Source: Pelosinus sp. UFO1 (GTDB lineage: Bacteria; Bacillota; Negativicutes; DSM-13327). Taken from it: 64,000 nt of DNA. The notes beneath the pieces are model-generated. The model searched no databases, was not told the origin of the DNA, and saw nothing but the letters and a program-made list of their open reading frames with translations. The stretch spans positions 1,331,693-1,395,692 of the forward strand of contig NZ_CP008852.1 of NCBI RefSeq assembly GCF_000725345.1. Reading direction: 5' to 3'. A program made the position numbers and the translations under genes. How positions within the stretch are numbered: position 1 is the stretch's first letter; each line of letters begins with the position of its first letter. Of this stretch, positions 44,286 to 62,399 are shown in pieces.

Positions 44286-44390
44286 GTACCTTGAAATCCA
44301 GTTCTATGTACGTGTGATAAGGAGAGCAAATAGAAGAAGATTCATGTCTATTTCTAGGGTGCTTTTGGCTGAAGACTTTCTTTGCATCTT

Positions 44391-44803: not shown

Positions 44804-44831
44804 AATAAAAAAATTAGAGGGAGGCTATTAA

Positions 44832-45956: not shown

Positions 45957-46000
45957 AATAATCTGATTTTACAGAATATTAATTCTTTTTGGGATGTTGA

Positions 46001-46039
46001 TGTGGTGTATAGAGTTGTAATTTTCTTCTATGCACCACA
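46001..46039 (+). other. Hairpin between binding-protein and ATPase genes
   Basis: TGTGGTG-T-ATAGA (46001-46013) pairs with TCTAT-G-CACCACA (46027-46039). Such intercistronic hairpins often stabilise the upstream mRNA or cause partial termination, so that the binding protein is made in excess. Confidence 0.6.
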
Positions 46040-46097
46040 AATATCCTTGCAATACCAGCATATTTTTTTATTCTATTTTTTCTTAGGAGGTGTAAGG

Positions 46098-47636
46098 ATG
46101 CAAGAATATTTATTGCAGATGAAAAATATAACGAAAGAGTTTCCAGGGGTTAAAGCTTTAAGTGGTGTGAACTTTAGTGTTAAAAAAGGACAAATACATG
46201 CTCTGGTTGGTGAAAATGGAGCAGGAAAATCTACCTTAATAAAAATTTTATGCGGCGTATACCCTTATGGTTTATATGGAGGCCAGATCATTTTTAATGG
46301 GGAAGAGAAAAAGTTTCACTGTATCAAAAATGTTGAGGATGCAGGCATTGCTTGTATTCACCAGGAGTTAAACATGGTGCCCGAACTTAGCATTTCTGAA
46401 AATATTTTTTTAAATAGTAAACCGAGTAAATATGGTATTGTCAATTTTGATGAGATGTTCAAAAGAACAGCGGAATTACTCAAGGAAATAGGTCTAAATT
46501 CTGATTCGGGAATTTGTGTAAATCCCAATGATAAGATCAAAAATCTGGGGATCGGTCATAAACAACTCGTTGAAATTGCAAAAGCTCTATCTTCGAATGC
46601 GCAACTGTTGATTTTAGATGAACCTACTGCAGCGTTGTCAGAAGCTGAGGCTAAAATTCTTTTAAATATTCTTGATGGTCTAAGAAAAAAAGGCGTTACC
46701 TGTATTTATATATCTCATAAACTTGATGAAGTAATGAAAATTTGTGATACCATCACTGTTCTAAGAGATGGTCAGACGATAGAAACTCGTGATAAAAGAA
46801 GCATGAATAAAGAAACCATGATCACGTTAATGGTTGGTCGTGAACTTAAAAATATGTTTCCCAGGGTACCACATAATAGAGGTGATGTTTCTTTTGAAAT
46901 TAGAAATTACAGCGTGCATCATCCTGATATTCCTGGAAAGATGCTGCTAAAGAATGTAAATATCAAAGCTTATCGGGGCGAAATCTTGGGCATTATCGGT
47001 CTGGTTGGCGCGGGAAGGACGGAATTGTTTACATCGATTTATGGAGCATTTAATGCACTGGCGGTAGGCGAAGTTTACATTGACGGAAAGAAAGTTGATA
47101 TTAAAAGTCCGATGGATGCTTTAAAAAAAGGACTGTTTTTGCTAAGTGAGGATAGAAAAAAGTTAGGGCTTAATCTTATTATGAGTATTAAAGAAAATGT
47201 TATTTTGTCTTCATTCAATAAAATATCTAAGTTTGGGGTGATTAACAATGACCAGACGGTTTTTGAAGCAAAAAAATATGTTCAAGATCTTAAAATCAAA
47301 ACTCCCAATGTCGAGGTTTTAGTCAATACACTGAGCGGTGGTAATCAGCAAAAAGTTGTTATTTCTAAGGGTTTGATGATGGGGCCTAAAGTTATGGTAC
47401 TTGATGAGCCCACACGTGGTATTGATGTTGGCGCAAAATATGAAATCTATAAGATTATGAATCAGCTTGTAGATGAAGGCGTGACAATCATTATGATTTC
47501 TTCGGAGATGGAAGAAATATTAGGCATGAGCGATAGAATCATAACGATGAGTAATGGCATGGTGACTGGTGAATTTGATGTTTTTGAAGCCACTCAGGAA
47601 AAACTGATGCATGCGTCGGCAGGAAGGGAAGGTTAA
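46098..47636 (+). CDS. Sugar ABC transporter ATPase with two nucleotide-binding domains (XylG-like)
   Basis: The 512-residue protein is the fused ATPase type of the ribose/xylose/galactose CUT2 class. Domain 1 has Walker A GENGAGKST (38-46), signature LGIGHKQLVEIAKAL and Walker B LLILDEPTAAL. Domain 2 starts with the degenerate Walker A GLVGAGRTELF and has signature LSGGNQQKVVISKGL and LDEPTRGIDVG. ATG 46098 with AGGAGGTG is used. A longer open frame upstream lacks a ribosome site and encodes a foreign hydrophobic leader. It is two bases from the permease gene, so the three genes form an operon. Confidence 0.94.
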   Translation: MQEYLLQMKNITKEFPGVKALSGVNFSVKKGQIHALVGENGAGKSTLIKILCGVYPYGLYGGQIIFNGEEKKFHCIKNVEDAGIACIHQELNMVPELSISENIFLNSKPSKYGIVNFDEMFKRTAELLKEIGLNSDSGICVNPNDKIKNLGIGHKQLVEIAKALSSNAQLLILDEPTAALSEAEAKILLNILDGLRKKGVTCIYISHKLDEVMKICDTITVLRDGQTIETRDKRSMNKETMITLMVGRELKNMFPRVPHNRGDVSFEIRNYSVHHPDIPGKMLLKNVNIKAYRGEILGIIGLVGAGRTELFTSIYGAFNALAVGEVYIDGKKVDIKSPMDALKKGLFLLSEDRKKLGLNLIMSIKENVILSSFNKISKFGVINNDQTVFEAKKYVQDLKIKTPNVEVLVNTLSGGNQQKVVISKGLMMGPKVMVLDEPTRGIDVGAKYEIYKIMNQLVDEGVTIIMISSEMEEILGMSDRIITMSNGMVTGEFDVFEATQEKLMHASAGREG

Positions 47637-47638
47637 TT

Positions 47639-48895
47639 ATGGAGAAAACAGCTTCAAGTGGGAGAACGTTATTTAGCACGGAAAAGTTTGATGTAAGAAC
47701 GTATACAATGATCGCTGCGCTGATACTTATGTGGATTGGATTTACGTATTTAACAAGTAAGGGGTTTACGGATCTGAACGGTTCGTTTATCACATCAAGA
47801 AATATATCAAACCTTGTTCGTCAGATGGCTATTGTAGGAATAATGGGGACAGGTATGGTATTGGTAATTGTTACAGGTGGTATTGATCTTTCAGTGGGGT
47901 CAGTTATGGGTTTTATTGGCTGTATTGGCACAACACTTCAGGTATGGCATGGTATGGGTACGACGGAGGTAATCGCTATATGCCTTGCTCTTGGATTTTT
48001 AATTGGTCTACTTGAAGGCAGCTTAATAGCTTATACAGGGATACCAGCTTTTATCATAACACTTGGTGGCATGCTTGTGTTTAGGGGCGGGGTTCTTGGT
48101 ATTACACATGGCACAACGGTTGCACCGCTGCAAAAGTCGCTGGTATATTTTGGGCAAGCTTATTTAAGTGAATTGACTAGTTTTATTATTGCGGTAGTTG
48201 CTATATTGTTTTTAGTTGGCGGCGAAATAGTAAGTCGTAAAACGAAAGAAAAATACAATAATTTAGATGAACCCTTGAATAGAATGATATTGCGCTGTAT
48301 CGTCTACAGCTTATTGGTTGTGGCTACCGTGATAATACTGAACAGTTATAGAGGTATTCCTGTCCCTGTTCTTATCATGTTAGTGCTTGTTCTTATATTG
48401 ACATTTATCGCTGAAAAAACAACATTTGGACGCAGAATTTACGCCATTGGTGGAAATATTGATGCGGCAAAATATTCTGGCATAAATGTTGAAAAAAATA
48501 TTACCTTCGTGTATGCTCTCAACGGATTGTTAGTAGCGATAGCTGGTTTAATATTAGCGGCACGTCTCAATGCAGGCACACCCGAGGCTGGATTAAACCT
48601 TGAATTGGATGCGATTGCTGCAGCCGTTATTGGTGGAACGAGTATGACAGGTGGTGTTGGTAAAGTAGTCGGCGCGATTTTAGGGGGCTTGATTATGGCT
48701 ACGATTGACAACGGCATGAGTATGATGAATTTAGATGCATATTGGCAGTATATCGTGAAAGGTCTAATTTTGGTTGCTGCTGTTTGGTTTGATATTAAAA
48801 CCAAGAAGAGTAGTTCAAAAGTCAAAGTAGATACAGGTAGCTCAAATAGTAATACTACTACAGAGAAAAGTTGTACAGGAGCGGGTAAGATATAA
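47639..48895 (+). CDS. Sugar ABC transporter permease (XylH-like, CUT2)
   Basis: The 418-residue membrane protein has about ten hydrophobic segments. It carries CUT2 permease motifs: NLVRQMAIVGIMGTGMVLVIVTGGIDLSVGSVMGFIG (about 55-91), GLLEGSLIAYTGIPAFIITLGGMLVFRG (about 120-147), RIYAIGGNIDAAKYSGINVEK and the late GGTSMTGGVGKVVGAILGGLIM. It is directly downstream of the ATPase (two-base gap). The C-terminal about 25 residues are a polar Ser/Thr tail (SSSKVKVDTGSSNSNTTTEKSC), unusual but not implausible. Last gene of the transport operon. Confidence 0.94.
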   Translation: MEKTASSGRTLFSTEKFDVRTYTMIAALILMWIGFTYLTSKGFTDLNGSFITSRNISNLVRQMAIVGIMGTGMVLVIVTGGIDLSVGSVMGFIGCIGTTLQVWHGMGTTEVIAICLALGFLIGLLEGSLIAYTGIPAFIITLGGMLVFRGGVLGITHGTTVAPLQKSLVYFGQAYLSELTSFIIAVVAILFLVGGEIVSRKTKEKYNNLDEPLNRMILRCIVYSLLVVATVIILNSYRGIPVPVLIMLVLVLILTFIAEKTTFGRRIYAIGGNIDAAKYSGINVEKNITFVYALNGLLVAIAGLILAARLNAGTPEAGLNLELDAIAAAVIGGTSMTGGVGKVVGAILGGLIMATIDNGMSMMNLDAYWQYIVKGLILVAAVWFDIKTKKSSSKVKVDTGSSNSNTTTEKSCTGAGKI

Positions 48896-48920
48896 GCAAT
48901 AATAAAATTAATATCTTTAA

Positions 48921-49082
48921 AAGAAAACTGCAATAAGTAGCGAAAATGCCGCAGAAGCTGAAACTATTTCAGCGGCTAGTGAAGAACAAGCAGCTACCAT
49001 GGATGAAATGTTGTCAGCAAGCAGTGAACTGGCAAAATTGGCTGATGAATTACATTTTTCAACTCATAAGTTTAGGGTGTAG
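48921..49082 (+). pseudogene. Methyl-accepting chemotaxis protein, C-terminal remnant
   Basis: The frame from 48921 to TAG 49080-49082 reads ISSENAAEAETISAASEEQAATMDEMLSASSELAKLADELHFSTHKFRV, the standard end of an MCP signalling domain. There is no start and no upstream MCP sequence, so only the last 50-odd codons survive behind the permease gene. It marks a deletion or recombination breakpoint next to the repeat array. Confidence 0.8.
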
Positions 49083-49104
49083 AGTAGAATATTACAGCGA
49101 GCGT

Positions 49105-49159
49105 CAATCAAAGGAGGCATATAAAACCAAGTTAGGTTTTGTAATGTCTCCTTTGATTG
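49105..49159. terminator. Hairpin after the MCP remnant
   Basis: CAATCAAAGGAGGCAT (49105-49120) pairs with ATGTCTCCTTTGATTG (49144-49159), with one mismatch, plus inner AAAACC/GGTTTT. It is probably the old MCP terminator and may now end the ABC operon. Confidence 0.65.
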
Positions 49160-49334
49160 GCTAAATAACCAGATTTTAGTTGCCAATTTTACAGCGTAAA
49201 AATATAAATCACAAGATTATATAGAAAATATGAAAACAAACGTAGCTGAAATTTTTAGCATTTTTCAAGTAAATTCGAAGTATAGGAATTACAAGAATTA
49301 TAAGAACAACAAGAATTGATATGTTGAAAAACTC
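49154..49334 (+). repeat. About 180-bp AT-rich repeat, copy B (tandem array)
   Basis: Core TTTTACAGCGTAAAAATATAA then ATCACAAGATTATATAGAAA, GTAGCTGAAATTTTTAGCA, and ends with GAATTACAAGAATTATAAGAA. The TATAAATC landmark at 49203 is 187 bp before that of copy C. Confidence 0.75.
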
Positions 49335-49513
49335 TTTTGCTGCTGGGCTTGAACAAAGGACTATGGCGGCAAAATTTACAGCGTAAAAATATAAATCGCA
49401 AGATTTTGTAGAAATTGTAGAAAGAAAAGTAGCTGATTTCTTTAGTATATTTCAGACAAGCTTGCATCATAAGAATTATAAGAAGAACAAGAATTATATA
49501 GTCTAAAATTTTT
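49335..49513 (+). repeat. About 180-bp AT-rich repeat, copy C (tandem array)
   Basis: Begins TTTTGCTGCTGGGCTTGAA; core TTTACAGCGTAAAAATATAA then ATCGCAAGATTTTGTAGAAA; ends CATAAGAATTATAAGAAGAACAAGAATT. Its landmark at 49390 is 178 bp before that of copy D. Confidence 0.75.
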
Positions 49514-49745
49514 TTTTGCTGCTTGACTTGAATAAACAGATTATGTCGGGAATTCAGAGCATAAAAGTATAAATCGCAAGATTGTATAGAAACTGTAAAA
49601 GTAAAAAATAGTTGAATATTTACTATATTTAGAATAAACGCGAATTATAAGAATTATGAGAATTATAAGAAAAACAAGAATTGTATAGAAAGAAATACAG
49701 AATAAATTTATGATTAAGGTGTAAATCGGATATGAAAAGGGGGAC
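49514..49745 (+). repeat. About 180-230 bp AT-rich repeat, copy D, abutting the catabolic operon
   Basis: Begins TTTTGCTGCTTGACTTGAA; core GTATAAATCGCAAGATTG; then GAATTATAAGAATTATGAG and two further 9-mers. It runs on through AGAATAAATTTATGATTAAG into the AAAGGGGG ribosome site of the dehydrogenase gene. It thus probably contains that operon's promoter and 5' UTR. Confidence 0.75.
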
Positions 49746-49749
49746 AAAA

Positions 49750-50922
49750 ATGAGAGCTTTTTATGTTGAAGCAGACTGGGCTCCCAAGGAGGGATACCAG
49801 TTGTCCGAGCGTGAGCTAAGCACTAAGCGGGCACTGAGGGGCAATTCCATTTGGAAAAATATTAAAGGATCTGTAGTTGATCGTCCCATACCCAAATACG
49901 ACGACGATCAGGTATTAATTAAAGTTGGAGCGGCAGGTATCTGTGGCACGGATGCACATCTTCTGCGCCAGGATGAGAACGGCTATTCCAAATATGACGG
50001 ACATTCTAAGTATCCGATTATCACAGGACATGAATTCTCTGGTGAAATTGTTGAAGTTGGTAAAAAGGTCAAAAAATTAAAAGTTGGCGATCTGGTCGGT
50101 GTGGAATCCATGCATTGGTGTGGCGAATGCGACGCTTGCCGCCGCGGGATGTTCAATCAATGTAAGGATTTAGAGGAACCAGGACTTACCTATGATGGTG
50201 GGTTCGCCGAGTATGCTGCTGTAAGAGCAAAATATTGTTATCCGCTCAATGATATTGTCAATTATTATGGCGATAAAATGACGGCGTTAGAGTTAGGGGC
50301 GCTGATTGAACCAACAGGCGTCGCATATAATGGTTTATTTGTACGCGGTGGTGGTATTCGGCCTGGCGGGCATGTGGTGGTGTTTGGTGCAGGTCCAATT
50401 GGGCTTGCCGCAATTTCACTGATGAAAACAGCAGGTGCGGCAAAATTGATTTGCTTTGAAAGCATTCCTGAAAGGGTAGAGCTGGCTAAACAATGTGGTG
50501 CCGACGCAGTCTACAATCCGTTAGATTTTAAATCGCCGGATGAGCAGGCGCAAATGCTTCTGGAACTCACCAATGGAGCTGGGATTTCGCTGTTTGCTGA
50601 ATGTGCGGGCGCAACGAAATTCACCTATCCGGTGATGGGCAAGTCGCTAGCCATCGGTGGTAAAACCATTCAAATTGGGCATACCATTGGTCTTACGCCA
50701 GTTGATATTTTTAACTGGCAATGGAATGCAGCTACCATCAGCGGCTCTAACGGACAATCCGGTCAGGGGATTTATCCAGATGTCATTGCATTAATGGCGT
50801 CAGGTCGTATTGATATGCGTAAAATGGTCACGGGACGTTATCAGCTCGAAGATATTGAAGAAGGAATGAAGATTACAGCTGGAAAGGTTCTGGTTTCAAC
50901 GGCATATGAAAAACGAAGCTAA
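49750..50922 (+). CDS. Zn-dependent dehydrogenase, IolM-like (scyllo-inosose dehydrogenase type)
   Basis: The 390-residue MDR enzyme has catalytic-zinc ligands Cys65 (GICGTDAH) and His94-Glu95 (TGHEFSG). Structural-zinc cysteines are 124, 127, 130 and 138, and the Rossmann motif is GAGPIGLAA. The extended N-terminus MRAFYVEADWAPKEGYQLSE, the RGGGIRPGGHVVV block and the late SGQGIYPDVIALMASGRIDM resemble Thermotoga TM0412 (IolM). That enzyme oxidises scyllo-inosose to a diketo-inositol. ATG 49750 behind AAAGGGGG is chosen over ATG 49732. First gene of the catabolic operon; repeat D forms its upstream region. Confidence 0.85.
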   Translation: MRAFYVEADWAPKEGYQLSERELSTKRALRGNSIWKNIKGSVVDRPIPKYDDDQVLIKVGAAGICGTDAHLLRQDENGYSKYDGHSKYPIITGHEFSGEIVEVGKKVKKLKVGDLVGVESMHWCGECDACRRGMFNQCKDLEEPGLTYDGGFAEYAAVRAKYCYPLNDIVNYYGDKMTALELGALIEPTGVAYNGLFVRGGGIRPGGHVVVFGAGPIGLAAISLMKTAGAAKLICFESIPERVELAKQCGADAVYNPLDFKSPDEQAQMLLELTNGAGISLFAECAGATKFTYPVMGKSLAIGGKTIQIGHTIGLTPVDIFNWQWNAATISGSNGQSGQGIYPDVIALMASGRIDMRKMVTGRYQLEDIEEGMKITAGKVLVSTAYEKRS

Positions 50923-51050
50923 AAAAGTACTCATCGTTACTTGAAGTTAAATGATAAAAAAATCAGCATTAGAAAAAACCGAAAGATACGAGAAGTAAGC
51001 TGAATTACAAAATATCAAAAATAAATAAAAAAATTAGGAGGAATATAACA

Positions 51051-52010
51051 ATGTCGAAATGGCAAATTCCCGCAAAAGGCGGCAATATGGAAGCAGATAA
51101 CGGCATCTACTATCAGAACATGACGAACCGGGAGGTGGCGGAAAGACTCAAAAAGAATGACGTCATTTTGATTCCCGTCGGTTCCACAGAAAATCATGGA
51201 CCGAACTCACCTTATGGTGAAGACACATATCTTGATACGCGCCTTTGCGAACAAGTAGCAAAAGCAACCGGTTGTACGGTAGCTCAACCAATATGGTATG
51301 GTTCACATCCTTATCATCATCTGGGCATGCCTGGTACTATCATGATACCGGAAGAAACACTGGCAGATTATCTTTGCTATGTATTCGCCGGATTCTGGAA
51401 TACTGGTTTTCGGAAGATGATTGTCGTCAATGGGCACGGACAAGATTATGTAATCCCATTGGCAATTCATAAGTTTGGTAAAAAATTTCAAGTACCCGGG
51501 ATTGTCTTATATGTTCATTTCTGGAATTGTGCTAAAGAGCAGCTTGATATTAAAGAAAATGGTGGTCCTTACAATACGCCGTTCATTCATGCTGATGAGG
51601 TGGAACAATCCTGGTCGTTGGCTTTATTTCCTGAACTTTGCAAACAAGAATATGCTGTTGCAACCAAAGCAGCGCCCATGCTGCCGCCGGGACATATCAA
51701 CAATTCGGCCGAACGTGGCGTAGGTCCGATCAAATGGTACAATGCTTTCGGGTCGGTAGGTATGGAGTGTATCTGCACGCCTGAAGGAGTAATTGGTGAT
51801 CCTACACAGGCAGATGCTGAAAAGGCACGTGCTGGCGTGGAACGCACATTGGACTACTTGGAAAAGTTAGTAAATGATATTCTGGAAAAGTATCCGGCAG
51901 GTGAGCTTCCTCCTACTGAAAAAGTAACCCAACGCAAACGTGAAGATATTGAAGCTGTTATCAAAGGCCCGACTAATGGCGGTCGTCATATTTATACACT
52001 GACCTATTGA
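51051..52010 (+). CDS. Creatininase-family amidohydrolase, IolN-like
   Basis: The 319-residue protein has creatininase-fold metal ligands: Glu and His in GSTENHGPNSPYGEDTYLDTRL, with the following Asp, His in VVNGHGQDY, and Glu in HADEVEQSWSLALFP. The creatininase superfamily includes Thermotoga IolN, which hydrolyses 3,5-diketo-inositol to 5-keto-L-gluconate, and it follows iolM there as here. By context this is the ring-opening step. An unusually long N-terminus (about 30 residues before the first strand) is present. AGGAGG precedes the ATG. Confidence 0.85.
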   Translation: MSKWQIPAKGGNMEADNGIYYQNMTNREVAERLKKNDVILIPVGSTENHGPNSPYGEDTYLDTRLCEQVAKATGCTVAQPIWYGSHPYHHLGMPGTIMIPEETLADYLCYVFAGFWNTGFRKMIVVNGHGQDYVIPLAIHKFGKKFQVPGIVLYVHFWNCAKEQLDIKENGGPYNTPFIHADEVEQSWSLALFPELCKQEYAVATKAAPMLPPGHINNSAERGVGPIKWYNAFGSVGMECICTPEGVIGDPTQADAEKARAGVERTLDYLEKLVNDILEKYPAGELPPTEKVTQRKREDIEAVIKGPTNGGRHIYTLTY

Positions 52011-52086
52011 TGTTTGACTTTTTTATCTATTAGAAAATGGTTGAGTAACTTATTCTATAAATTAAGAGTAAAAGGGGATAAGAAGA

Positions 52087-53160
52087 ATGAAAAAACGTCC
52101 AACAAAATGTAAAGCTGCTTTTATGTATGGTCCGAAAGATTTAAGATTTGAGGATTTGGAATTGCCACCGCTGCAACCTTATCAGGTGCTGATTAAACTC
52201 AAAGCCTGCGGTATTTGTGGTTCCGATGTTGAATGCTATGAAGGTGAATCCGCTGAAGGACGTTACGATATAGCGCCGTATGTGCCTGGCCATGAATGGG
52301 CAGGACAGGCTGTAGAAATCGGCAGCGCTGTAACTTCAGTAAAGGTGGGTAATAAAGTTGTTGGTGACTGCGTACTGCCTTGTAACAATTGCGCAAATTG
52401 TAAAGATGGCAAAATGCCTTCTGCCTGCCTGAATATGCGTGAACTTGGTTTTCGTCCCGATTCTCCCGGCGGTTGGGGTGAATATATGATTTTAGAAGAA
52501 CAATATACCCATGTAATCCCTGATGATTGGGGGTATGAATTGGGTGCTTGGGTAGAAACCTTCAATGTTGGCTATTGGGGCGTATGGGGCAACGGTTGCA
52601 ATCCCGATGCTTCCGACGATATTGCCATTATTGGTGCAGGCCCCATCGGTATGTGTGCGGCAATGGTTTGTGCGGCTTCTGGTGCTAATGTTATCGCCAT
52701 TGACCCTTTGGAAAAAAGACGTCAGAATATTTTGAATTATGGTGCAAATCATGTGGTAGACCCGACTGCTTGCAATGTAGAAGAAAAATTAAAAGAATTG
52801 ACAAATGGACGCGGTCCCTCTGTAGTCATTGAATGTTCCGGCAATGACATCGGTATTGCTTCGCTGTTCGATATCGCTGGTCATTCTGCCCGTGTTGGTG
52901 TAGTAGGGCATTCTATTGGACGTAAAGTACCCGTAGAAATCGGCAAGACTATCTGGAAAACGCTTCGCCTTTCTGGTTCTGGCGGTACGAATAAATGGTT
53001 CCCTAAAACGATTCGCTTTATGTCACGTATTAAAGACAAATATGATTTTGCCGCTTTGAATTCTCATCACTATGATTTCTTTGAGCTGGACAAGGCTATG
53101 GATCTTGCCTGCCACCATAAAGATATTGCGCGTAAGGTTATGCTGACATTTAAGGATTAA
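52087..53160 (+). CDS. Zn-dependent polyol/sugar dehydrogenase (MDR family)
   Basis: The 357-residue enzyme has catalytic Cys in ACGICGSDVECYEG, GHE in VPGHEWAGQ, structural-zinc cysteines in CVLPCNNCANCKDGKMPSAC and the nucleotide motif IGAGPIGMCAAMV. Sequence character is that of sorbitol/L-idonate/threonine dehydrogenases. It is distinct from the IolM-like gene at 49750, being shorter at the N-terminus. In the inositol context it could reduce or oxidise a keto-acid intermediate or process another cyclitol. The exact reaction is not assignable. Start ATG 52087 follows AAGGGG. Confidence 0.87.
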   Translation: MKKRPTKCKAAFMYGPKDLRFEDLELPPLQPYQVLIKLKACGICGSDVECYEGESAEGRYDIAPYVPGHEWAGQAVEIGSAVTSVKVGNKVVGDCVLPCNNCANCKDGKMPSACLNMRELGFRPDSPGGWGEYMILEEQYTHVIPDDWGYELGAWVETFNVGYWGVWGNGCNPDASDDIAIIGAGPIGMCAAMVCAASGANVIAIDPLEKRRQNILNYGANHVVDPTACNVEEKLKELTNGRGPSVVIECSGNDIGIASLFDIAGHSARVGVVGHSIGRKVPVEIGKTIWKTLRLSGSGGTNKWFPKTIRFMSRIKDKYDFAALNSHHYDFFELDKAMDLACHHKDIARKVMLTFKD

Positions 53161-53210
53161 GGTATCTGCTTTACTTAATTTTCTACAAATACAAAATCTG
53201 AGTATGAAAT

Positions 53211-53243
53211 TGGAAAGGGTGAGTGTTATGCTTCACTCTTTCC
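53211..53243 (+). other. Hairpin before the IolO-like gene
   Basis: GGAAAGGGTGA (53211-53221) pairs with TTCAC-T-CTTTCC (53231-53243). No T-run. The AAACGTTT palindrome at about 53260-53267 just after it could be part of an operator. Confidence 0.4.
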
Positions 53244-53286
53244 GACTAATCAGGCAATCAAACGTTTAAAGAAGGGGGGGATAAGG

Positions 53287-54108
53287 ATGAAACAGTGGAA
53301 ACTTGCGGTATCTTCTGCTGACGAAGCACCGCATACTGCACCGATTTTACTACAGGGCGATATTTGCAGCAATCTACGAGCGGCAGCTTGCTTAGGCTAT
53401 GATGCGATTGAGGTACATACCAGAGAAACCGCGGATTTAAATTATTCTGCAATTGCACAAACCGTAAAGGAGTGCGGCACAAAAGTTTGTATGGTCATTA
53501 CGGGTCGACTGAACACAGAAGGTCGCTGCAACTTGATTGATGATGTGCCTTACATTACTAAAGCTGCGATGGACGGTATGAAACAGTATATTGATATGGC
53601 ACAAAAACTTAATGCTGATCTTGTGGTCGGCTGGGTTAAAGGTAACATTCCACCCGGCGGTAAACGTGATAAATATATGGATAGATTGGCAAAGCATTTG
53701 AGGGAACTTGCGGATTATGGAGCAAAGCGTAATGTGAAATTAAATCTTGAAGTCATCAACCGCTATGAGGTTAATGTATTCACAACGGCTGAAGAAACGA
53801 TGGAGTTTCTAGAGCACTATAAAATCGACAATTGCTATGTGCACTTGGATACCTTCCATATGGGGATTGACGAAAGTGATCCGGTCACTGCAATTCAAAG
53901 GTGTAAAGGAAAGCTCGGTTATATGCATTTTGCCGATAATTCGCGGCGTTATCCCGGAAGTGGGCAGTTTGATTTTCGGAAGATTCTTAAAACATTAGAC
54001 GAAATCGGTTATGTGGGGTATTTGTCCGTAGAATGCCTGCCAGAGCCGGATGGGCAGACCGCGGCAGAAAAAGCCTCTGTTTTTTTAAAAAAATTATTTG
54101 AGGAGTAA
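53287..54108 (+). CDS. TIM-barrel sugar epimerase, IolO-like (5-keto-L-gluconate epimerase type)
   Basis: The 273-residue xylose-isomerase-like barrel has the four metal ligands of this family: Glu in LNLEVINRYEVNVF, Asp in HLDTFHMGIDE, His in GYMHFADNSRRYPGSGQFDF, and Glu in YLSVECLPEP. INRYE, LDTFHM, HFADxNR..PG.G.FDFR and SVECLP are shared with Thermotoga TM0416 (IolO), which epimerises 5-keto-L-gluconate to D-tagaturonate. The ATG is behind GAAGGGGGGG. It follows the IolM- and IolN-like genes. Confidence 0.87.
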   Translation: MKQWKLAVSSADEAPHTAPILLQGDICSNLRAAACLGYDAIEVHTRETADLNYSAIAQTVKECGTKVCMVITGRLNTEGRCNLIDDVPYITKAAMDGMKQYIDMAQKLNADLVVGWVKGNIPPGGKRDKYMDRLAKHLRELADYGAKRNVKLNLEVINRYEVNVFTTAEETMEFLEHYKIDNCYVHLDTFHMGIDESDPVTAIQRCKGKLGYMHFADNSRRYPGSGQFDFRKILKTLDEIGYVGYLSVECLPEPDGQTAAEKASVFLKKLFEE

Positions 54109-54252
54109 CTTTATATAACATCTTTTTTAAATCATTTAAAATATTCAGAATAGGACGACAACATAGCTAATTACAATGCAATAAAATGACCGCTAGGTCA
54201 AGTTTATTCTCCAATGGAATTTATCAAGTAGTAGAAGGGGACGATAAAGCTC

Positions 54253-55716
54253 ATGGATAATCAAATTACAAAAGAAGAGACACTTCTCCAACAACCAGAT
54301 CAATCATTAAATAAAGAGAAACCCACACCAAAATCATATTTAAGGATTATCGCACTTATATCAACATTTGGGGGATTACTCTTTGGATATGATACAGGTG
54401 TTGTTAATGGTGCTTTACTGTATATGTCGCGCCCGGATCAATTAAATCTTACTCCCTTTATGGAGGGCCTTGTTGCAAGTTCACTTCTTTTTGGAGCGGC
54501 TTTGGGAGCTGTAATGGGGGGGCGTCTGTCTGATAAATACGGTCGGAAAAAAAATATTTCTTATTTGGCTATCGTATTTTTCTTTGCGACAATCGGCTGT
54601 GCGTTAGCTCCAAATTCGGATGTCATGATTGGATTTCGTTTCTTACTCGGTTTGGCTGTAGGCGGTGCTTCAGTTACAGTGCCAACATATTTAGCAGAAA
54701 TGTCTCCAGTGGAAGATCGCGGTCGTGTGGTTACACAAAATGAGCTGATGATCGTAACAGGACAATTTTTAGCATTTCTTATGAATGCGATTCTGGGGAA
54801 TCTTTTTGGGTCAACTGGTCATATTTGGCGCTACATGTTATCTATTGCTACAATACCGGCTGTGGTTTTGTGGGTGGGTATGCTTACAATGCCAGAGAGC
54901 CCGCGTTGGCTGGTATCAAAAGGAAGGATCGGCGAGGCGTTAAATGTGTTAAAACGCGTACGGGATGAAGCACGTGCAGTTGTTGAATTAGGTGAGATTA
55001 AAGAACTTTCTGATGCTGAAGCGCATTTAGAAAAAGCAAATATAAAGGAGTTTGCTATAACACCTTGGATTCGCCGACTTTTATTTATTGGAATCGGAGT
55101 TGGAATTGTTCAACAAATTACGGGTGTAAATGCTATTAATTATTATGGAACGCAAATTCTGAAAGAGGCCGGCTTTAGTATGCAGGCAGCTTTGATTGCC
55201 AATACAGCAAATGGTGCTATTTCCGTAACAGCAACTTTAGTGGGTATGTGGTTATTGGGAAGACTCGGCCGACGAAAAATCTTTCTCATAGGGCTTACAA
55301 TGACGACTATTACACAATGTTTCATTGGCATTTCTTCAATGACATTATCTGATCAATCTTATTTTCCTTATCTTATTCTTTCGATGACAGTTACCTTTAT
55401 GGCCTTTCAGCAAGGATGCAGCGCACCTGTTACCTGGCTTATCATGTCGGAAATATTTCCTTTGCGTCTACGGGGGCTGGGAATGGGTACGGTAGTGTTT
55501 TTTTCGTGGATAGCTAATTTTACCGTCGGATTAGGTTTTCCTGTTTTATTGAGTAGCATTGGTTTGTCACAGACCTTCTTTACATTTGCCTTTGGCGGAT
55601 TTATGGCCATCTTATTTGTTGCCAAATGGCTTCCCGAAACAAAGGGACGTTCTCTTGAACAATTAGAACAATGTTTTCAAAATTACAAAACTATTGATTG
55701 TAGGAAATTGGAGTAG
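54253..55716 (+). CDS. MFS sugar porter, probable inositol transporter (IolT-like)
   Basis: The 487-residue proton symporter has 12 hydrophobic segments after a polar N-terminal tail of about 30 residues. Sugar-porter signatures are GGLLFGYDTGVVNGALLYM, GGRLSDKYGRKK, PESPRWLVSKGR, QQITGVNAINYYGTQIL, GRLGRRKIFL and PETKGRSLEQLE. GYDTGVVNGAL is typical of Bacillus IolT and IolF. It would be a second route for inositol besides the ABC system. Start ATG 54253 is about ten bases after AGAAGGGG. Confidence 0.9.
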   Translation: MDNQITKEETLLQQPDQSLNKEKPTPKSYLRIIALISTFGGLLFGYDTGVVNGALLYMSRPDQLNLTPFMEGLVASSLLFGAALGAVMGGRLSDKYGRKKNISYLAIVFFFATIGCALAPNSDVMIGFRFLLGLAVGGASVTVPTYLAEMSPVEDRGRVVTQNELMIVTGQFLAFLMNAILGNLFGSTGHIWRYMLSIATIPAVVLWVGMLTMPESPRWLVSKGRIGEALNVLKRVRDEARAVVELGEIKELSDAEAHLEKANIKEFAITPWIRRLLFIGIGVGIVQQITGVNAINYYGTQILKEAGFSMQAALIANTANGAISVTATLVGMWLLGRLGRRKIFLIGLTMTTITQCFIGISSMTLSDQSYFPYLILSMTVTFMAFQQGCSAPVTWLIMSEIFPLRLRGLGMGTVVFFSWIANFTVGLGFPVLLSSIGLSQTFFTFAFGGFMAILFVAKWLPETKGRSLEQLEQCFQNYKTIDCRKLE

Positions 55717-55756
55717 AAAAAACGAATTTAAGATAGTTAGGAGGAGGGAAATAACT

Positions 55757-56584
55757 ATGAAACTGGGGATAAATGAAGCTACCTGTAAAGGAAATTCTAC
55801 CTTGGAAAAAGACTTACTGCTTTGTGAAAAGTACCACTATAGTTATATTGAAATTAGGCTGGATATGCTGAAAGATTATTTGAAAGGGCATTCCATAGAA
55901 GAACTGCAAAATTTCTTTAAAACAAGTCATGTCAAGCCTTATGCATTTAATTCTATTGAAGATATTAATTTTCGCACGGAGCAACAATGGGAAGAGGTAG
56001 TTGCGCTATTTACCTTCGCTTGTGAGATGGGGCAAAAAATTGGCAATCCTTATATCATTGTTGTCCCCACAATGGGTGACGATATGATCCAAAAGACGGA
56101 AAAGGAAATATTTGACGATAGTGTTAAAGTACTGCGAAAATTATCCGATATCGCCACATCATATGGAATGAAATTGGCATTTGAGCCTATCGGAAACTCA
56201 CGTTGGTGTGTCCGCAATCTGGAACAATGCATGGACATTATCAATGCAGTAGATCGAAAGAATGTCGGTGTGGCATTGGATGCGTTTAATCTCTTTCTTT
56301 ACAATAAGCTACAGAATATTGATTCCCTTGAACTCGTTCCGGCAGAAAAGATCTTTGTTTATCACATTGATGACAGTGAAAACTTGCCGTTGTCGGTGTT
56401 AGATCATTGCCACAGATTGTTTCCCGGTGACGGTGTTATCCCTCTTGCGGCAATTACACAAAAACTTCATGCAAAAGGCTATGATGGTATTGCTTCGGTA
56501 GAGCTTTTCCGACCAGAATATTGGGCGATGGACCCCGATGAAGTTTTTCGTTTGGCAGCAGAAAAAACAAAACAATTTTTATAA
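55757..56584 (+). CDS. iolI: Inosose isomerase-like TIM-barrel protein (IolI)
   Basis: The 275-residue protein matches Bacillus IolI (2-keto-myo-inositol isomerase) along its length: MKLGINEATCKGNSTLEKDL, LLCEKYHYSYIEIR, LKGHSIEELQNFFKTSHVKP, VLRKLSDIATSYGMKLAFEP, EKIFVYHIDDSENLP and SVELFRPEYWAM. Metal ligands Glu, Asp, His and Glu fall in LAFEP, VALDAF, VYHIDD and SVELF. It interconverts inosose isomers so that other inositols can enter the pathway. ATG 55757 with GGAGG is used; a longer frame from 55694 overlaps the previous gene. 40 bp after the MFS gene. Confidence 0.9.
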   Translation: MKLGINEATCKGNSTLEKDLLLCEKYHYSYIEIRLDMLKDYLKGHSIEELQNFFKTSHVKPYAFNSIEDINFRTEQQWEEVVALFTFACEMGQKIGNPYIIVVPTMGDDMIQKTEKEIFDDSVKVLRKLSDIATSYGMKLAFEPIGNSRWCVRNLEQCMDIINAVDRKNVGVALDAFNLFLYNKLQNIDSLELVPAEKIFVYHIDDSENLPLSVLDHCHRLFPGDGVIPLAAITQKLHAKGYDGIASVELFRPEYWAMDPDEVFRLAAEKTKQFL

Positions 56585-56611
56585 TTAATATATTTTTAGG
56601 AGGAAAAACAA

Positions 56612-57631
56612 ATGATAAAACAGCTAAAAATTGGCATAATCGGAATGGGCAGAATTGGTAAGCTGCATGGCAACAATTTAGCGTTTTCTGTGCCTAATGC
56701 AAAAATTGAAGCGGTAGCTGATCTTTTTCTAAATGATGAAATGCGTGCTTGGGCACAAGGCCTGGGCGTACATAAAATTTATGATAATCCAGCACAGATT
56801 TTTGCCGATCCGACAATTGAAGCCGTATTCATCTGCTCATCGTCAGAAGCGCATGCCGACTTAATCATTCAAGCGGCAGTGGCAAAAAAACACATTTTCT
56901 GCGAAAAACCAATTCATACTGATGCCGCTAAGATTCGCGAGGCGCTTGCAGCTGTAGAGAAAGCAGGTGTTAAACTGCAAGTCGGTTTTGTACGCCGATT
57001 TGACCATAATCATAAAAAAGTAAGAGACATCGTGGCTTCAGGCCAAGTCGGCAAACCACACATTGTAAAGGTTACTTCGCGGGATCCCGAGCAGCAACCA
57101 ATGGAATATATAAGTACATCCGGCGGAATTTTTCTCGACATGACAATTCATGACTTTGATATGGCGCGTTATCTTTCCGGTAGTGAGGTGACTGAGGTCA
57201 CAGCAATCGGCGCAATTAAAATTGATGAAAGAATCCGAGAATTTTCTGATGTAGATACGGCGATTGTTTTGCTCAAATTCGAAAACGGCGCTATTGGCGT
57301 AATTGATAACAGCCGGGCTGCTCACTATGGTTACGACCAGCGCGTGGAAGTGCATTGTGACAAAGGCTGCGTGCAGGATTACAATGATCTCATTGATACG
57401 ACGACGATCAGTACGAAAGATGGTGTTTGCAGTGAACGACCAAAATGGTTTTTCCTCGAACGTTATAATCAAGCGTTTATCGCCGAGGCACAAGAATTTA
57501 CGGCTGCGGTTTTAAATGATACCGAGCCCTCTGTTACAGGAATAGATGGGCTAATGCCTGTATTGATTGCCAAAGCCGCACAAAAATCATTGGATGAAGG
57601 ACGTACTGTCAAATTAACAGAATTCGCCTAA
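56612..57631 (+). CDS. iolG: Gfo/Idh/MocA oxidoreductase, inositol 2-dehydrogenase-like (IolG)
   Basis: The 339-residue NAD(P)-dependent enzyme has the Rossmann start KIGIIGMGRIGKLHGNNLA, the conserved EKPIHTDAAKI with catalytic-type Lys (about 98-108). The C-terminal part has GGIFLDMTIHDFDMARYLSGSEV, where Asp and His fall in the MTIHDFDM motif used for inositol oxidation. It would convert myo-inositol to scyllo-inosose, the substrate of the IolM-like enzyme. AGGAGG precedes the ATG, 28 bp after iolI. Other members act on sugars, so the exact isomer is open. Confidence 0.9.
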   Translation: MIKQLKIGIIGMGRIGKLHGNNLAFSVPNAKIEAVADLFLNDEMRAWAQGLGVHKIYDNPAQIFADPTIEAVFICSSSEAHADLIIQAAVAKKHIFCEKPIHTDAAKIREALAAVEKAGVKLQVGFVRRFDHNHKKVRDIVASGQVGKPHIVKVTSRDPEQQPMEYISTSGGIFLDMTIHDFDMARYLSGSEVTEVTAIGAIKIDERIREFSDVDTAIVLLKFENGAIGVIDNSRAAHYGYDQRVEVHCDKGCVQDYNDLIDTTTISTKDGVCSERPKWFFLERYNQAFIAEAQEFTAAVLNDTEPSVTGIDGLMPVLIAKAAQKSLDEGRTVKLTEFA

Positions 57632-57812
57632 TTCATGATTCGTCTCTGCTAATACAATTCTAATGGTGATGCCACTGTGAAAAGTCTTTTGAGTTATTGA
57701 TATTCATTTTGCATTTGGCTTGTTGCAGTGGCATCATTGGGTTTATGATACTGGATGGATTGAAAAACATATAGTATTAGTCCTTATATAAATACAAAGG
57801 AAGAGCCTTACT

Positions 57813-58556
57813 ATGATGTCTATTACACTCGGGATTTATATATTTATTGTACAATTTATGTCTTTTATTATTAAGGGTCTGGTTGGTTTCGGAAACCCTC
57901 TTTTATCCAATCCGCTCATGGCAATGAAACTAGATAATAAGGTCATTACTCCTGCTAACCTGTTACTGGATACTCCAATTAATGCTTGGATTGTGTGGCA
58001 AAATCGCAAATTTTTTTCTGTAAAAAAAACTGCACCTATTGTAATTCTCATTATGCTAGGTGTCATTCCTGGTACATTATTTTTAGAAATAGGGACTCCA
58101 TGGATCATTAAAGTTCTTCTCGGTGTATTTATTATTGGATTAGGTATCGAAATGGTTACCAGAAACCGCAGTGGCAATATCAAACCTAATGTAGCTCTAA
58201 AGATAATAATATCAATTGCCTCAGGTTTCATGGCGGGCTTGTTTGGCATTAATATGTTATTTTTAACTTATTTTGAACGCATTGCCATAGATCGAAATGA
58301 ATTTCGCAGCAACGTATGCTTTGTCTTTCTGGTTGAAAATATATTTCGTTTTATTGTCTATGCCGCAACAGGAGTATTTCAACCAGTCGTTTTTCAGATA
58401 TTTGCAATATCAGTGCCGGCAGCAGTACTGGGAGTGTTTGTAGGCAGCAAAATTGACAAAAAATTAGATGAAAAAATGGTAAACCAATTGGTAATTGCTA
58501 CTTTTATCTTGGGTGGTATCAGTATTTTGATAAAAGCGCTTATTTTTAAAGAGTAG
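57813..58556 (+). CDS. TauE/SafE-family membrane permease
   Basis: The 247-residue protein has about eight hydrophobic segments. Family traits include a first half beginning FIKGLVGFGNPLLSNPLMAMKLDNKVITPANLLLDTP and a mirrored second half with KIIISIASGFMAGLFGINMLFLTYFERI, ending PAAVLGVFVGSKIDKKLDEKMVNQLVIATFILGGISILIKAL. TauE/SafE permeases move sulfite, sulfonates or organic anions, mostly out of the cell. It stands 180 bp after iolG. It might export an acid product, but the substrate is unknown. Start at ATG 57813 or the adjacent 57816. Confidence 0.88.
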   Translation: MMSITLGIYIFIVQFMSFIIKGLVGFGNPLLSNPLMAMKLDNKVITPANLLLDTPINAWIVWQNRKFFSVKKTAPIVILIMLGVIPGTLFLEIGTPWIIKVLLGVFIIGLGIEMVTRNRSGNIKPNVALKIIISIASGFMAGLFGINMLFLTYFERIAIDRNEFRSNVCFVFLVENIFRFIVYAATGVFQPVVFQIFAISVPAAVLGVFVGSKIDKKLDEKMVNQLVIATFILGGISILIKALIFKE

Positions 58557-58621
58557 AAACTTTAAACACTTATGCCTGATGAAAAGAAATAGTAAGAGAA
58601 TTCCATATACAGGTGAGGGCA

Positions 58622-58711
58622 ATGATAAAAATTAAGAGGACATATGAAATTAAAAAATTATTACGGGAATACCCTTTAATTATGCCGGTTTACGCAATAA
58701 AACCTGCATAG
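58622..58711 (+). other. Small ORF of uncertain status
   Basis: ATG 58622 after GGTGAGGG opens 29 codons (MIKIKRTYEIKKLLREYPLI...) to TAG 58709. The ribosome site is plausible, but the product is unrecognised. A CTGCAT/ATGCAG hairpin follows at about 58704-58728. It may be a remnant or a leader peptide. Confidence 0.25.
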
Positions 58712-58740
58712 AAATAATATCCATGCAGATTTAAACTGAA

Positions 58741-58995
58741 TATTCTGTAACTTGGTGTACTTTTGTAAACGCCATGTGCATTACCGATAGCTACTGCTAA
58801 AGCATTTACGTCAGTGCCTTCATAAAACTGCTTTGCTTCTTGTACAGATGTCGCCATTATTTTGTTAGACCATGATCCAAATGCACAGCGACTGGCACTT
58901 TTGCTTTTTTAGCAGCGTCTATCATAACTGGTCCAATTAAATGTAGAGGTGAATATTTCAACCTACCTTCGGCAATTTGAAGAAAGCTCATCCCT
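58741..58995 (-). pseudogene. Class II (zinc) fructose-bisphosphate aldolase-like remnant
   Basis: Read from right to left, one frame gives FLQIAEGRLKYSPLHLIGPVMIDAAKKAKVPVAVHLDHGLT, then a stop at about 58850. After a deletion, a shifted frame gives ATSVQEAKQFYEGTDVNALAVAIGNAHGVYKSTPSY. Both are hallmark class II aldolase blocks (metal-binding HLDHG and GTDxLAVAIGNxHG). The family includes Bacillus IolJ, the aldolase of the phosphorylating inositol route. Start and end are missing. The remnant sits opposite in orientation to the inositol cluster. Confidence 0.8.
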
Positions 58996-59407
58996 TTAAA
59001 GTGCTACTTTTTTATTCCTGCTCAATAATCAATCTAACGTTATTAGCAGAAAAAAATCACTTCATGGCCTTTTGTTTCAGCATTATTGATTGGTTACTTT
59101 CTAAAGTCTTACAAAGTAACTATTGAGATTATTTTGCGTAACATCAATTTTAAATATAAAGATGTTTGTATTAATCTCGTAACACCTCCTGAACAAAAAA
59201 CGGAAGAAGAATCTAAAACCACGCCTAATAGACGAGTAATTTGTCAGAGGTTCTTTTGTCCTATTTCCGTTTTACGCTGCTAAAACAGAAATATATTATA
59301 ATTGATAATTAATTATTGATTCGGTAAATGTTGCTACTGATGAATGATTGCGTATATCTTCATAATAATGGACAATCTAACCATATAAATTATCGGGAGG
59401 CGTATTC
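58996..59407. other. Gene-free stretch before yyaL
   Basis: A 65-codon frame (59086-59283) has no ribosome site and no similarity I can see. AAAACGGAA (59198-59206) and TTCCGTTTT (59264-59272) form a distant inverted repeat. The yyaL ribosome site GGGAGG lies at 59395-59400. Confidence 0.3.
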
Positions 59408-61554
59408 ATGGAAAATAAAACCTACTACGACCCAAAAACTAAAAATCACGACATCCACAGCCAAAATACTAACAAACCCAATAGATTAATCCACGAGAAA
59501 TCCCCATACTTACTCCAACATGCCAATAATCCAGTAGATTGGTATCCATGGGGAGCAGAAGCGTTTCAGAAAGCACAGCGTGAGAATCGGCCTGTATTTT
59601 TGTCTGTAGGCTATTCTTAGCTGTGCTTAAAATAAATGATAGGATGTTACTTTAATTTACATGCCATTGGTGCCACGTCATGGAGCGAGAATGTTTCGAA
59701 GATCAGGAAGTTGCAGATGTATTAAATGCTCATTTTGTTTCTATAAAAGTGGATAGAGAAGAACGTCCAGATGTGGATGGAATCTATATGTCAGTGTGCC
59801 AGGCACTTACGGGACAAGGCGGATGGCCTTTAACGATTATTATGGGGCCAGATAAGAACCCTTTTTTTGCTGGGACATATTTTCCTAAGCATCGCAAGAT
59901 GGGCAGGATGGGATTACTCGAACTCTTAACCGTAGTACATAAAAAGTGGCAAGATAATCGAGTGGAAATCCTCGAAGCTAGCGATCAAATTGTTAATATC
60001 CTTCAGCGACCTAACCAACCAAATGAAGAAGGGCAAATTGGGAAGGATATATTAGAGAAAGCTTATTTAGAGTTGGAAAGTAGCTTTGATCCTAAATATG
60101 GGGGATTTGGTACTGCGCCCAAATTTCCGACACCCCATAAAATGAATTTTTTACTTAGGTATTGGCGGCATTTTAAGAAAGAGAAAGCTCTTAACATGGT
60201 AGAGAAAACTCTCATGTCGATGTGGCAAGGCGGAATCTACGATCATTTAGGATATGGTTTTGCTAGATACTCTACAGATCAAAAGTGGTTAGTACCTCAT
60301 TTTGAAAAGATGTTATATGATAATGCGTTATTATGCGATAGCTATCTTGAGGCGTATCAATGTTCTGGTAATCAAGAATTTGCTAGAATTGTTGAGGAAA
60401 TCCTGACTTATGTTATGCGAGATATGATGAGCGAGAAGGGCGGATTTTTCTCGGCTGAAGATGCTGACTCTGAAGGGGTGGAAGGCAAGTTCTACGTATT
60501 CACTAGAAAAGAAGTAGTGGATATAGTAGGGGAAGAAGCAGGGACTGTTTTTGCCGATTTTTATGAGGTTTCCTCTCAGGGTAACTTTGAGCATGGGACA
60601 AGTATTTTACATGTCATTGGAAGAGATTTTGAGGCTTTTGCCAGTTCTGTAAATAAAACGACAACAGAATTGGCAGACTTATTACAGCGAGGGCGGGAAA
60701 AAATCTATCAGGTAAGGGAAAAACGTATTCACCCTTATAAAGACGATAAGATTCTTACAGCTTGGAATGCATTAATGATTGCTTCTTTTGCGAAAGCATC
60801 TCGGATATTGGAACGAGATAATTATTCGGTGGTAGCAGAAAGGGCAATTGAATTCATCTACGACAATCTTGTACGCGAGGATGGACGTTTACTGGCTCGC
60901 TACCGTGACGGAGAAGCTGCTCACTTAGCTTATCTTGATGACTATGCATTTTTGTTGCTGGCACTTCTTGAAACTTATCAAACAACCTATAAGGATGCTT
61001 ACTTGCAGCGCGCCATTAAGATAGCTGACGATATGAAGGCTTTATTTTGGGACGAAAAAGCAGGCGGATTTTTCTTTTATGGTGTGGATGGAGAAGAACT
61101 AATTACAAGACCCAAGGAGATTTATGATGGAGCTATTCCTTCCGGCAATTCTGTCGCGGCTTTGGCTTTGCAAAAATTAGCTGACATTACAGAGAATGAA
61201 GATGTAAGTAAAATGGCAGAAAAAATATTGGATCGCTTTGCTGGAGAAGTTAGCCATTATGCAGCAGGTTATACTTATTTTTTGATGGCTGTTGACTATT
61301 ATTTGGCTGAAAAAATAAAAGTTGTCATTGTAGGTGACAAGGATTTGCCTGATACGAAGGCGATGTTACAGGCAATGAATCACGTATTTTTACCTACAGC
61401 AACAGTACGTTTTTATGATATACATTCGCAAAATACTAGTAATTATAAAGGTACTGAGGGGAAAGCTACGGCTTATCTATGTAAAGGCGTTGCATGTCAG
61501 CCTCCAATTACAGATGTGGAATTTTTTCGTACGAAAATTAAATCTAATATTTAA
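59408..61554 (+). pseudogene. yyaL: YyaL/DUF255 thioredoxin-domain protein, split by a 41-bp insertion
   Basis: Reading frame 59408-59620 encodes 70 residues ending [11 protein letters not shown] and a TAG. The match resumes 41 bp later with TCHWCHVMERECFEDQEVADVLN and runs intact to 61554 (about 630 residues). Joined, the two halves give a full-length YyaL: thioredoxin-like domain with redox motif CHWC, then an alpha/alpha six-hairpin barrel with LVPHFEKMLYDNALL and FFSAEDADSEGVEGKFYV. Members are ancient and widespread, of unclear function. The second ORF, if translated alone from ATG 59680, would lack the CxxC site. Because the long half is undamaged, the break is recent, or bypassed, or a sequencing artefact. 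Confidence 0.8.
59618..59658 (+). other. 41-bp insertion between GYS and TCHWC codons of yyaL
   Basis: TCT of GYS ends at 59617 and ACA of TCHWC starts at 59659. The 41 bases between begin TAGCTGTGCTTAAAATAAAT and end TTACTTTAATTT. They shift frame and add an immediate stop. No terminal repeats are obvious except the weak TTAAA/TTTAA. Confidence 0.6.
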
Positions 61555-61561
61555 GTATTAA

Positions 61562-61620
61562 TAATTGTTATTAAATAATAATTAAAACATATTGATAAGA
61601 ATAGAAAAATATGCTAAAAT
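61562..61620 (+). promoter_or_regulatory. Ferritin promoter with Fur/PerR-like palindrome
   Basis: TAATTGTTATT (61562-61572) and AATAATAATTA (61574-61584) form a near-perfect 23-bp palindrome. It is followed by TTGATA (61592-61597), a 17-bp spacer and TAAAAT (61615-61620). Fur or PerR binding is a guess from AT-rich symmetry. Confidence 0.5.
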
Positions 61621-61667
61621 TGAGTTAATAAAAATGATAAGTGGTTCTAATGAAAGGGGAATATAAA

Positions 61668-62156: not shown

Positions 62157-62164
62157 TAGTATTG

Positions 62165-62207
62165 AAGAAGAATTCATTCCTGGATGGGATGGATTCTTCT
62201 TTTTGAT
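62165..62207 (+). terminator. Terminator after ferritin
   Basis: AAGAAGAATTCATTCC (62165-62180) pairs, with mismatches, with GGGATGGATTCTTCTT (62186-62201), followed by TTTGATTTTTT. Confidence 0.85.
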
Positions 62208-62310
62208 TTTTTTGCTATGGCGACGCTTACTCGTTTTGCTAGGCATGGGAGTAGTTGCCCATTGATTTTAAAGAGCTTAGGATGAAATTAGCAGCCAGTG
62301 AAATCATAAC

Positions 62311-62385
62311 TTGATTATTTTACCAGTTATTACTATAATAGTATTGTTAACGTCACCGTGTTATTTGGTTAACAATACTATTATA
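62311..62385 (+). promoter_or_regulatory. Promoter with BirA-type biotin operator for bioH-bioC
   Basis: TTGATT (62311-62316), 17-bp spacer, TATAAT (62334-62339). A perfect 18-bp inverted repeat (62334-62351 and 62368-62385, 16-bp gap) has inner arms TTGTTAAC and GTTAACAA, the BirA operator consensus. It spans from the -10 box to the ribosome site, so biotinyl-AMP-bound BirA would block transcription. Confidence 0.85.
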
Positions 62386-62399
62386 AAGGAGTGTCTAAG

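Follow-up and report, generated by a model that had tools for sequence, protein, structure and literature searches.

The DNA considered here, the window, is a stretch of 64 000 nucleotides from the genome of Pelosinus sp. UFO1, a single contig of 5.1 Mb. At 49750–57631 it holds seven uninterrupted genes on the plus strand, running from IolM to IolG with intergenic gaps of 27–144 nt. We consider it fairly probable that these genes form an accessory operon for inositol oxidation, spread laterally, in a member of the Negativicutes that also has a pathway of the Bacillus type. To judge from the sequences, the cluster is a subtype of its own and not the ordinary Thermotoga type, and it seems to supplement the Bacillus-type route as a second one, not to replace it. 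An earlier note, made from the DNA sequence alone, had described here a 'Thermotoga-style' inositol pathway, with IolI and a further MDR dehydrogenase added, that the organism uses instead of the Bacillus route. The same-strand run, the IolI-like gene within it and the second MDR dehydrogenase are all present, and the occurrence of these enzyme families in a Bacillota genome is upheld. The claim that they stand in for the Bacillus route is not.

Family membership was observed directly. IolM (49750–50922), a zinc dehydrogenase of the scyllo-inosose 3-dehydrogenase family, passes its equivalog model NF041097 with 535.5 bits (cut-off 450). IolN (51051–52010), a creatininase-family hydrolase (3-dehydro-scyllo-inosose hydrolase), passes NF041098 with 546.8 bits (cut-off 245), and IolG (56612–57631), inositol 2-dehydrogenase, passes TIGR04380 with 442.1 bits (cut-off 355). 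Most of the earlier gene calls therefore stand, that of the IolO-like TIM-barrel epimerase (53287–54108) in weakened form, as described below. The IolI-like inosose isomerase (55757–56584) exceeds the cut-off of no equivalog model in the NCBI collection; its clear top match in the PDB, at 214 bits, is IolI of Bacillus subtilis (1i60), and the next entry scores 42 bits. The IolT-like major facilitator superfamily (MFS) transporter (54253–55716) had been called IolT, which holds at the level of the sugar-porter subfamily (TIGR00879, 346 bits, cut-off 237.8) and not specifically for IolT. Thermotoga maritima proteins are the top PDB matches of IolM (3ip1, 276.5 bits), of the IolO-like protein (TM_0416, 2zvr) and of IolG (3ezy, 47% identity); 3ip1 we take to be TM0412, and 3ezy TM0414. 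The IolO-like protein and TM0416 have in common Glu, Asp and His residues such as usually serve as metal ligands in ketose 3-epimerases. IolN is 54% identical to IolN of a metagenome-assembled genome (MAG) of the Thermotogaceae, and 86–88% identical to the proteins of three Planctomycetota MAGs. For IolM we prefer the start at 49750 to that of the longer open reading frame, at 49732, because a G-rich stretch lies directly upstream of 49750.

The T. maritima pathway, in which IolG, IolM, IolN and IolO act on inositol, was reportedly described by Rodionova et al. in 2013. 'Thermotoga-style' is apt for the window cluster in that the enzyme families are the same, and loose in that other Bacillota have IolM and IolO proteins more closely related to those of T. 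maritima. Nine IolM proteins from clusters of other Bacillota are 64–73% identical to TM0412, and that of the window is only 38–39% identical. We term 'window-type' those genomes whose IolM is at least 65% identical to the window's. They were taken from the best 80 matches of a scan, so the list is not a census; besides the window it comprises 21 loci among the matches listed (L083 repeats L057), including that of Lucifera butyrica (Negativicutes, Bacillota). In an IQ-TREE phylogeny of 40 rows, window-type IolM proteins form a 20-row clade (100/100) apart from a 13-row clade that contains TM0412 (100/100), and a FastTree phylogeny of 136 rows separates them in the same way. The window-type clade spans Negativicutes, Lachnospiraceae, Oscillospiraceae, Butyricicoccaceae and Planctomycetota; a partial relative from a Treponema MAG (73% over 120 residues) stands outside the tree. 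Surroundings are readable at 15 window-type loci (L053–L057, L084–L090, L092, L096 and L103), and IolM, IolN, MDR2 and IolO are present at all 15, the IolO gene of L085 being cut by the contig start. IolG lies near the cluster in 10 of these and IolI in eight.

'MDR2' is our name for the second MDR-family zinc dehydrogenase (52087–53160), which directly follows IolN and precedes IolO in the window and exceeds the cut-off of no equivalog model. It occurs in 20 of 22 window-type genomes (the window's own, those of the 15 readable loci, and those of L093, L094, L095 and L144; L091 and L148 are the misses) and in none of 17 others at a threshold of E 1e-50. MDR2 is a regular part of the subtype and specific to it among the genomes tested. 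Across the 15 loci its identity is 74–98%, and all 16 sequences that were aligned keep the Cys, His and Glu residues that resemble zinc ligands, the zinc-binding positions being taken from MDR enzymes in general. At the end of the second Rossmann strand, where an acidic residue suggests NAD, there appears by eye to be an Asp in MDR2 and a Glu in IolM; this suggests NAD as the cofactor of both. Three identities for MDR2 were considered and rejected. It is not the second MDR protein of the clostridial Thermotoga-type clusters, which falls in a different FastTree clade (the deepest branches of that tree are weak). Nor is it a plain substitute for IolG, given that IolG is near 10 of the 15 clusters. 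And no specific solved relative can be assigned: the 16-sequence profile matches polyol-type MDR enzymes in general, best of all the ketose reductase 1e3j (159 bits), with 3ip1 third (147 bits).

The Bacillus-type route is encoded some 1.95 Mb away, in an island at ~3.313–3.344 Mb (L050–L052). Searches of the genome with models for iolD and iolE found both at ~3.33 Mb (982.9 bits, cut-off 715, and 431.5 bits, cut-off 290) and no place over cut-off inside the window. The island also holds an IolC domain (415.3 bits, cut-off 300) and two types of IolG over cut-off, a bifunctional one (607 bits, cut-off 540) and IolG proper (480.5 bits, cut-off 355). Its iolA-type gene matches the methylmalonate-semialdehyde dehydrogenase (MMSDH) subfamily (561.6 bits, cut-off 448.5), a model broader than iolA, and its iolJ-type gene matches the class II aldolase model PRK06806 (422.3 bits, cut-off 396), which is not specific to IolJ. 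Between iolC and iolE is a gene for an IolB-like protein that scores under the cut-off of TIGR04378 (110.6 bits against 205). Consequently the statement in the earlier note that iolB, C, D and E are absent is true of the window, where no intact copy is seen in the translated stretch 44000–64000, and false of the organism, in which iolC, iolD and iolE exceed their cut-offs and an iolB-like gene is present. That absence from the window is what would favor an organism relying on the window cluster alone; at the level of gene content the island refutes this notion, iolD and iolE by themselves oblige us to reject the absence of the Bacillus route, and we give it next to no credence. The island further contains a CoA-transferase gene and, by eye, genes for an enoyl-CoA hydratase, an electron-transfer flavoprotein (Etf) and an acyl-CoA dehydrogenase. 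In the available portion of a study of Anaerostipes (PMC8355322), a Bacillus-type pathway is joined to a propionate arm; the island's IolC, IolD, IolE, IolB-like, aldolase and IolA-type genes resemble the former, and its CoA-transferase and acyl-CoA-type genes recall the latter. The same portion gives the propionate-arm gene cluster as observed only in Anaerostipes. The window cluster differs from the Anaerostipes type, as far as that source goes, in being a separate locus with a different ring-opening hydrolase.

An accompanying iolD is typical of the subtype and not of this strain alone. iolD exceeds its cut-off in 20 of 22 window-type genomes, and in none of 48 genomes with other types of IolM or IolN (Fisher p = 1e-15). 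The positives are the window's own genome, G001, G002, G026, G050, G130 and 14 of 16 genomes identified through named contigs, those of L088 and L094 being the exceptions. The comparison set comprises 39 Bacillota hits, left from 40 once the window's own genome is set aside, together with G066, G534 and G541–G547, of which G542 and G543 have IolM relatives and no IolN at E 1e-30; neighborhoods were read, at one or two places each, in 19 of the 39. The base rate of iolD is 26 of 150 relatives, own genome included. Within the window's genus, again including this genome, iolD occurs in seven of eight genomes and IolN in three of eight, which fits an add-on. The p-value overstates the link, since only three changes in the iolD trait are seen across the IolM tree (39 labelled rows). 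The link is nonetheless credible because the hosts are mutually distant and because Bacillus-type iol genes lie near the cluster at five of the 15 loci (L055, L057 with L193, L084, L085 and L096).

The most economical reading of these data has tagaturonate as the end product of a second, oxidative branch for inositol. Inositols would be imported by an ATP-binding cassette (ABC) system or by the MFS porter and oxidized by IolG to inososes, whose isomers IolI would interconvert. IolM would then make diketo-inositol, IolN would open the ring, and the IolO-like enzyme would epimerize the resulting keto-acid, giving tagaturonate. UxaB and UxaA, whose genes lie outside the cluster, could convert the tagaturonate to 2-keto-3-deoxygluconate (KDG). 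The likeliest job for MDR2 is a further NAD-dependent dehydrogenation of a polyol or keto-acid, by which it might widen the range of inositol isomers or adjust redox balance. Every one of these reactions, the flux through them and the role of MDR2 we infer from the co-occurrence and family membership of the genes. The enzymes required at the end of the scheme have candidates in the genome: UxaB, which consumes tagaturonate, is well over cut-off (672 bits against 359), and adjoining it is a UxaA-like dehydratase that matches only the galactarate dehydratase model, with 320 bits and under that model's cut-off of 730.85. UxuA is also over cut-off, and a UxuB-like protein is under it.

Several observations weigh against this reading. 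The IolO-like protein fails the IolO equivalog model NF041099 (208.9 bits, cut-off 300) and is only 30% identical to TM0416, IolM has the low identity to TM0412 given above, and the T. maritima scheme contains no step for MDR2. The Pelosinus genome has no match to UxaE, which epimerizes tagaturonate in T. maritima, and uxa or kdg relatives occur at none of the 15 readable loci. The module itself is less than uniform. IolG is not near five of the 15 clusters, and at the six other window-type loci only part of the cluster is visible: in L091, L095, L144 and L148 IolM is at the contig end, and the short contigs L093 (4.7 kb) and L094 (3.6 kb) show no IolN beside IolM. Among other Bacillota, nine of 20 loci have IolN-family genes with no IolM relative nearby, so that the IolN family may serve other substrates and IolN alone is no proof of the route. 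As to the link with iolD, 20 of the 48 comparison genomes were counted as hits with their neighborhoods unread, and the association comes from a single gene clade. The weak IolO score is compatible with epimerization to tagaturonate, because a protein with 35% identity to IolO, LguG of Luteolibacter LG18, catalyzes the interconversion of 5-keto-L-gluconate and tagaturonate according to the available part of PMC12632266. The pathway to which LguG belongs starts from L-glucose, and IolM and IolN go unmentioned in the same part of the text.

The fate of the ring-opened acid may differ from this scheme. Clusters of the Thermotoga type in other Bacillota (L060, L064, L069, L071, L078 and L079) resemble the window in having the IolM, IolN and IolO families together, and differ in that their IolM is 65–73% identical to TM0412 and their genomes have neither MDR2 nor iolD; L060, L064, L069 and L071 contain a second MDR protein, of another clade than MDR2. 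Relatives of uxaB and uxaA are carried in L060, L078 and L079, as also in L132, and L060 and L078 have candidate kdgK and kdgA genes besides (named by eye), an arrangement that fits the predicted pathway. Room for another fate is left by the additional MDR2, by the lack of uxa genes beside the window-type clusters, and by the class II aldolases that L054 and L055 have within or next to the cluster (L096 has a relative). MDR2 might act on the product of IolN, which a kinase resembling IolC would then phosphorylate and a class II aldolase cleave, and tagaturonate would not be formed. The position of MDR2 directly after IolN and before IolO in the window suits this idea, as do those aldolases, the decayed one at 58732–58982, the IolC-like genes in L055 and L096, and the lack of uxa relatives at all 15 loci. 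Set against it, the aldolase family was found in only three of 22 window-type stretches clustered, and the kinase and aldolase genes could be classical iol genes relocated nearby; we think it improbable.

A module of another kind adjoins some window-type clusters. In L. butyrica (L057:12978–16516 with L193:4563–11003) and in L084 (4451–9658), genes resembling glyceraldehyde-3-phosphate dehydrogenase (GAPDH), a phosphoglycerate kinase (PGK)-family protein, a split transketolase and IolB lie by the cluster; that of L. butyrica has in addition a malic-enzyme-like gene and relatives of iolD, iolE and iolG. Such a module could provide a transketolase-type inositol route, in which deoxyketogluconate gives xylulose-5-phosphate and malate semialdehyde, and the latter malate and pyruvate, with no need of IolC or IolJ. 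We found nothing on such a route in the open-access literature. On a stricter reading, IolM, IolN, MDR2 and IolO would constitute a distinct, laterally spread module that works only alongside the IolD pathway, MDR2 would be an undescribed enzyme, and the keto-acid product would pass to steps of the classical type, not to the Thermotoga uronate route; these steps would be carried out either by a kinase with a class II aldolase or by a transketolase/PGK-like module such as adjoins the L. butyrica cluster. This we regard as unlikely.

Why one cell should keep two inositol routes may be explained by their substrates. The window operon could serve isomers or methyl ethers of inositol that are poor substrates for the classical route, with IolM and MDR2 oxidizing different ring positions and the Bacillus-type operon taking myo-inositol, a proposal that overlaps the accessory-operon reading and is more specific. 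Both loci have their own IolI, IolG and sugar porter, and the paralogues are clearly distinct (IolI 45% and MFS 63% identical between window and island); the island has the bifunctional type of IolG; the cluster type co-occurs with iolD; and several hosts are recorded from the gut of roe deer, goat and horse, where plant cyclitols might be expected. Against the proposal, IolG is missing from the vicinity of five of the 15 clusters and IolI from that of seven. We hold it tentatively, as possible rather than probable.

Upstream of IolM are genes that may belong with it. An AraC-family regulator (43247–44119, plus strand; Pfam HTH_18 and AraC_binding) is a candidate for control of the cluster, and relatives at least 43% identical occur at 10 of the 15 loci. 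The plus-strand ABC genes had been called an XylFGH-type system. Such open reading frames do lie upstream, and the sugar-binding protein (44832–45956) is XylF-like and under the cut-off of TIGR02634 (360 bits against 389.55), with relatives in L054 (41%), L085 (58%) and L092 (63%). The ATPase (46098–47636; its ATG start was chosen by eye, downstream of the listed GTG at 46002) has relatives in the same three loci (92, 62 and 59%, respectively), as has the permease (47639–48895; 88, 47 and 56%). Between the ABC genes and IolM, a remnant at 48936–49079 matches a chemotaxis receptor at its C terminus (44% over 48 amino acids); at the corresponding spot in the same-genus genome G002 (L054) there is a gene for a chemotaxis receptor of 573 amino acids. 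Nearer to IolM, at 49182–49703, are three imperfect direct repeats of 125 nt, the later copies 70–76% identical to the first, spaced by 187 and 178. Downstream of IolG, a TauE/SafE-family transporter gene (57813–58556, plus strand; PF01925) is a recurrent neighbor, with relatives at nine of the 15 loci, and is possibly an exporter or importer of carboxylates. The minus-strand remnant of a class II aldolase follows; tblastn aligns it as two pieces, 58982–58863 (75% identity) and 58869–58732 (52%), with the intact enzyme of this family encoded in the Bacillus-type island of the same genome. The remnant reported in the earlier note is real, a short piece that could come from IolJ or from another class II aldolase. 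Elsewhere in the genome, at ~4.061–4.066 Mb (L164:1117–6149), three genes resemble by eye components of a nitrogenase, perhaps of an alternative type.

The presence of both gene sets in one genome has a parallel in Megamonas, which we take to belong, like the window genome, to the class Negativicutes. KEGG annotation of Megamonas MAGs lists iolU, B, E, D, G, I, N and M (PMC13234733), and this was the only report with iolM and iolN together that a search of the open-access literature gave. The families themselves are already known and modelled, and iolM and iolN have, on the available portion of that report, already been published in one genome with iolB, D, E, G and I; in that portion the listing is incidental, with no analysis of operon, subtype or MDR2. 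Judged by title or the start of the abstract, none of the papers given by a search of the open-access literature dealt with two subtypes of IolM or with MDR2, and a search for Pelosinus with inositol gave nothing useful. In two surveys of bacterial inositol use, Thermotoga is unmentioned in the main text, as judged by term search of the parts available (PMC12482443 and PMC9430895). Compared with the T. maritima pathway itself, the window cluster shares the families, three of them at equivalog level. It differs in the divergence of IolM and of the IolO-like protein, in the additional MDR2 and IolI, in the lack of a UxaE match, and in a host that also has the Bacillus-type route. One study found no growth of T. 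maritima on inositol (PMC3750489, seen in part), which counsels caution about the physiological role of the pathway even there.

Among the genomes examined, then, the names IolM and IolN cover two types of cluster, one where iolD is missing and another almost only where iolD is present. The second type, the one with MDR2, has hosts that are far apart: Negativicutes, Lachnospiraceae, Oscillospiraceae, Planctomycetota and, judging by a partial sequence, Treponema. If clusters were annotated as IolM and IolN by name only, the physiology predicted from them would be wrong. MDR2, for its part, offers a well-defined candidate enzyme of inositol metabolism that can be tested.

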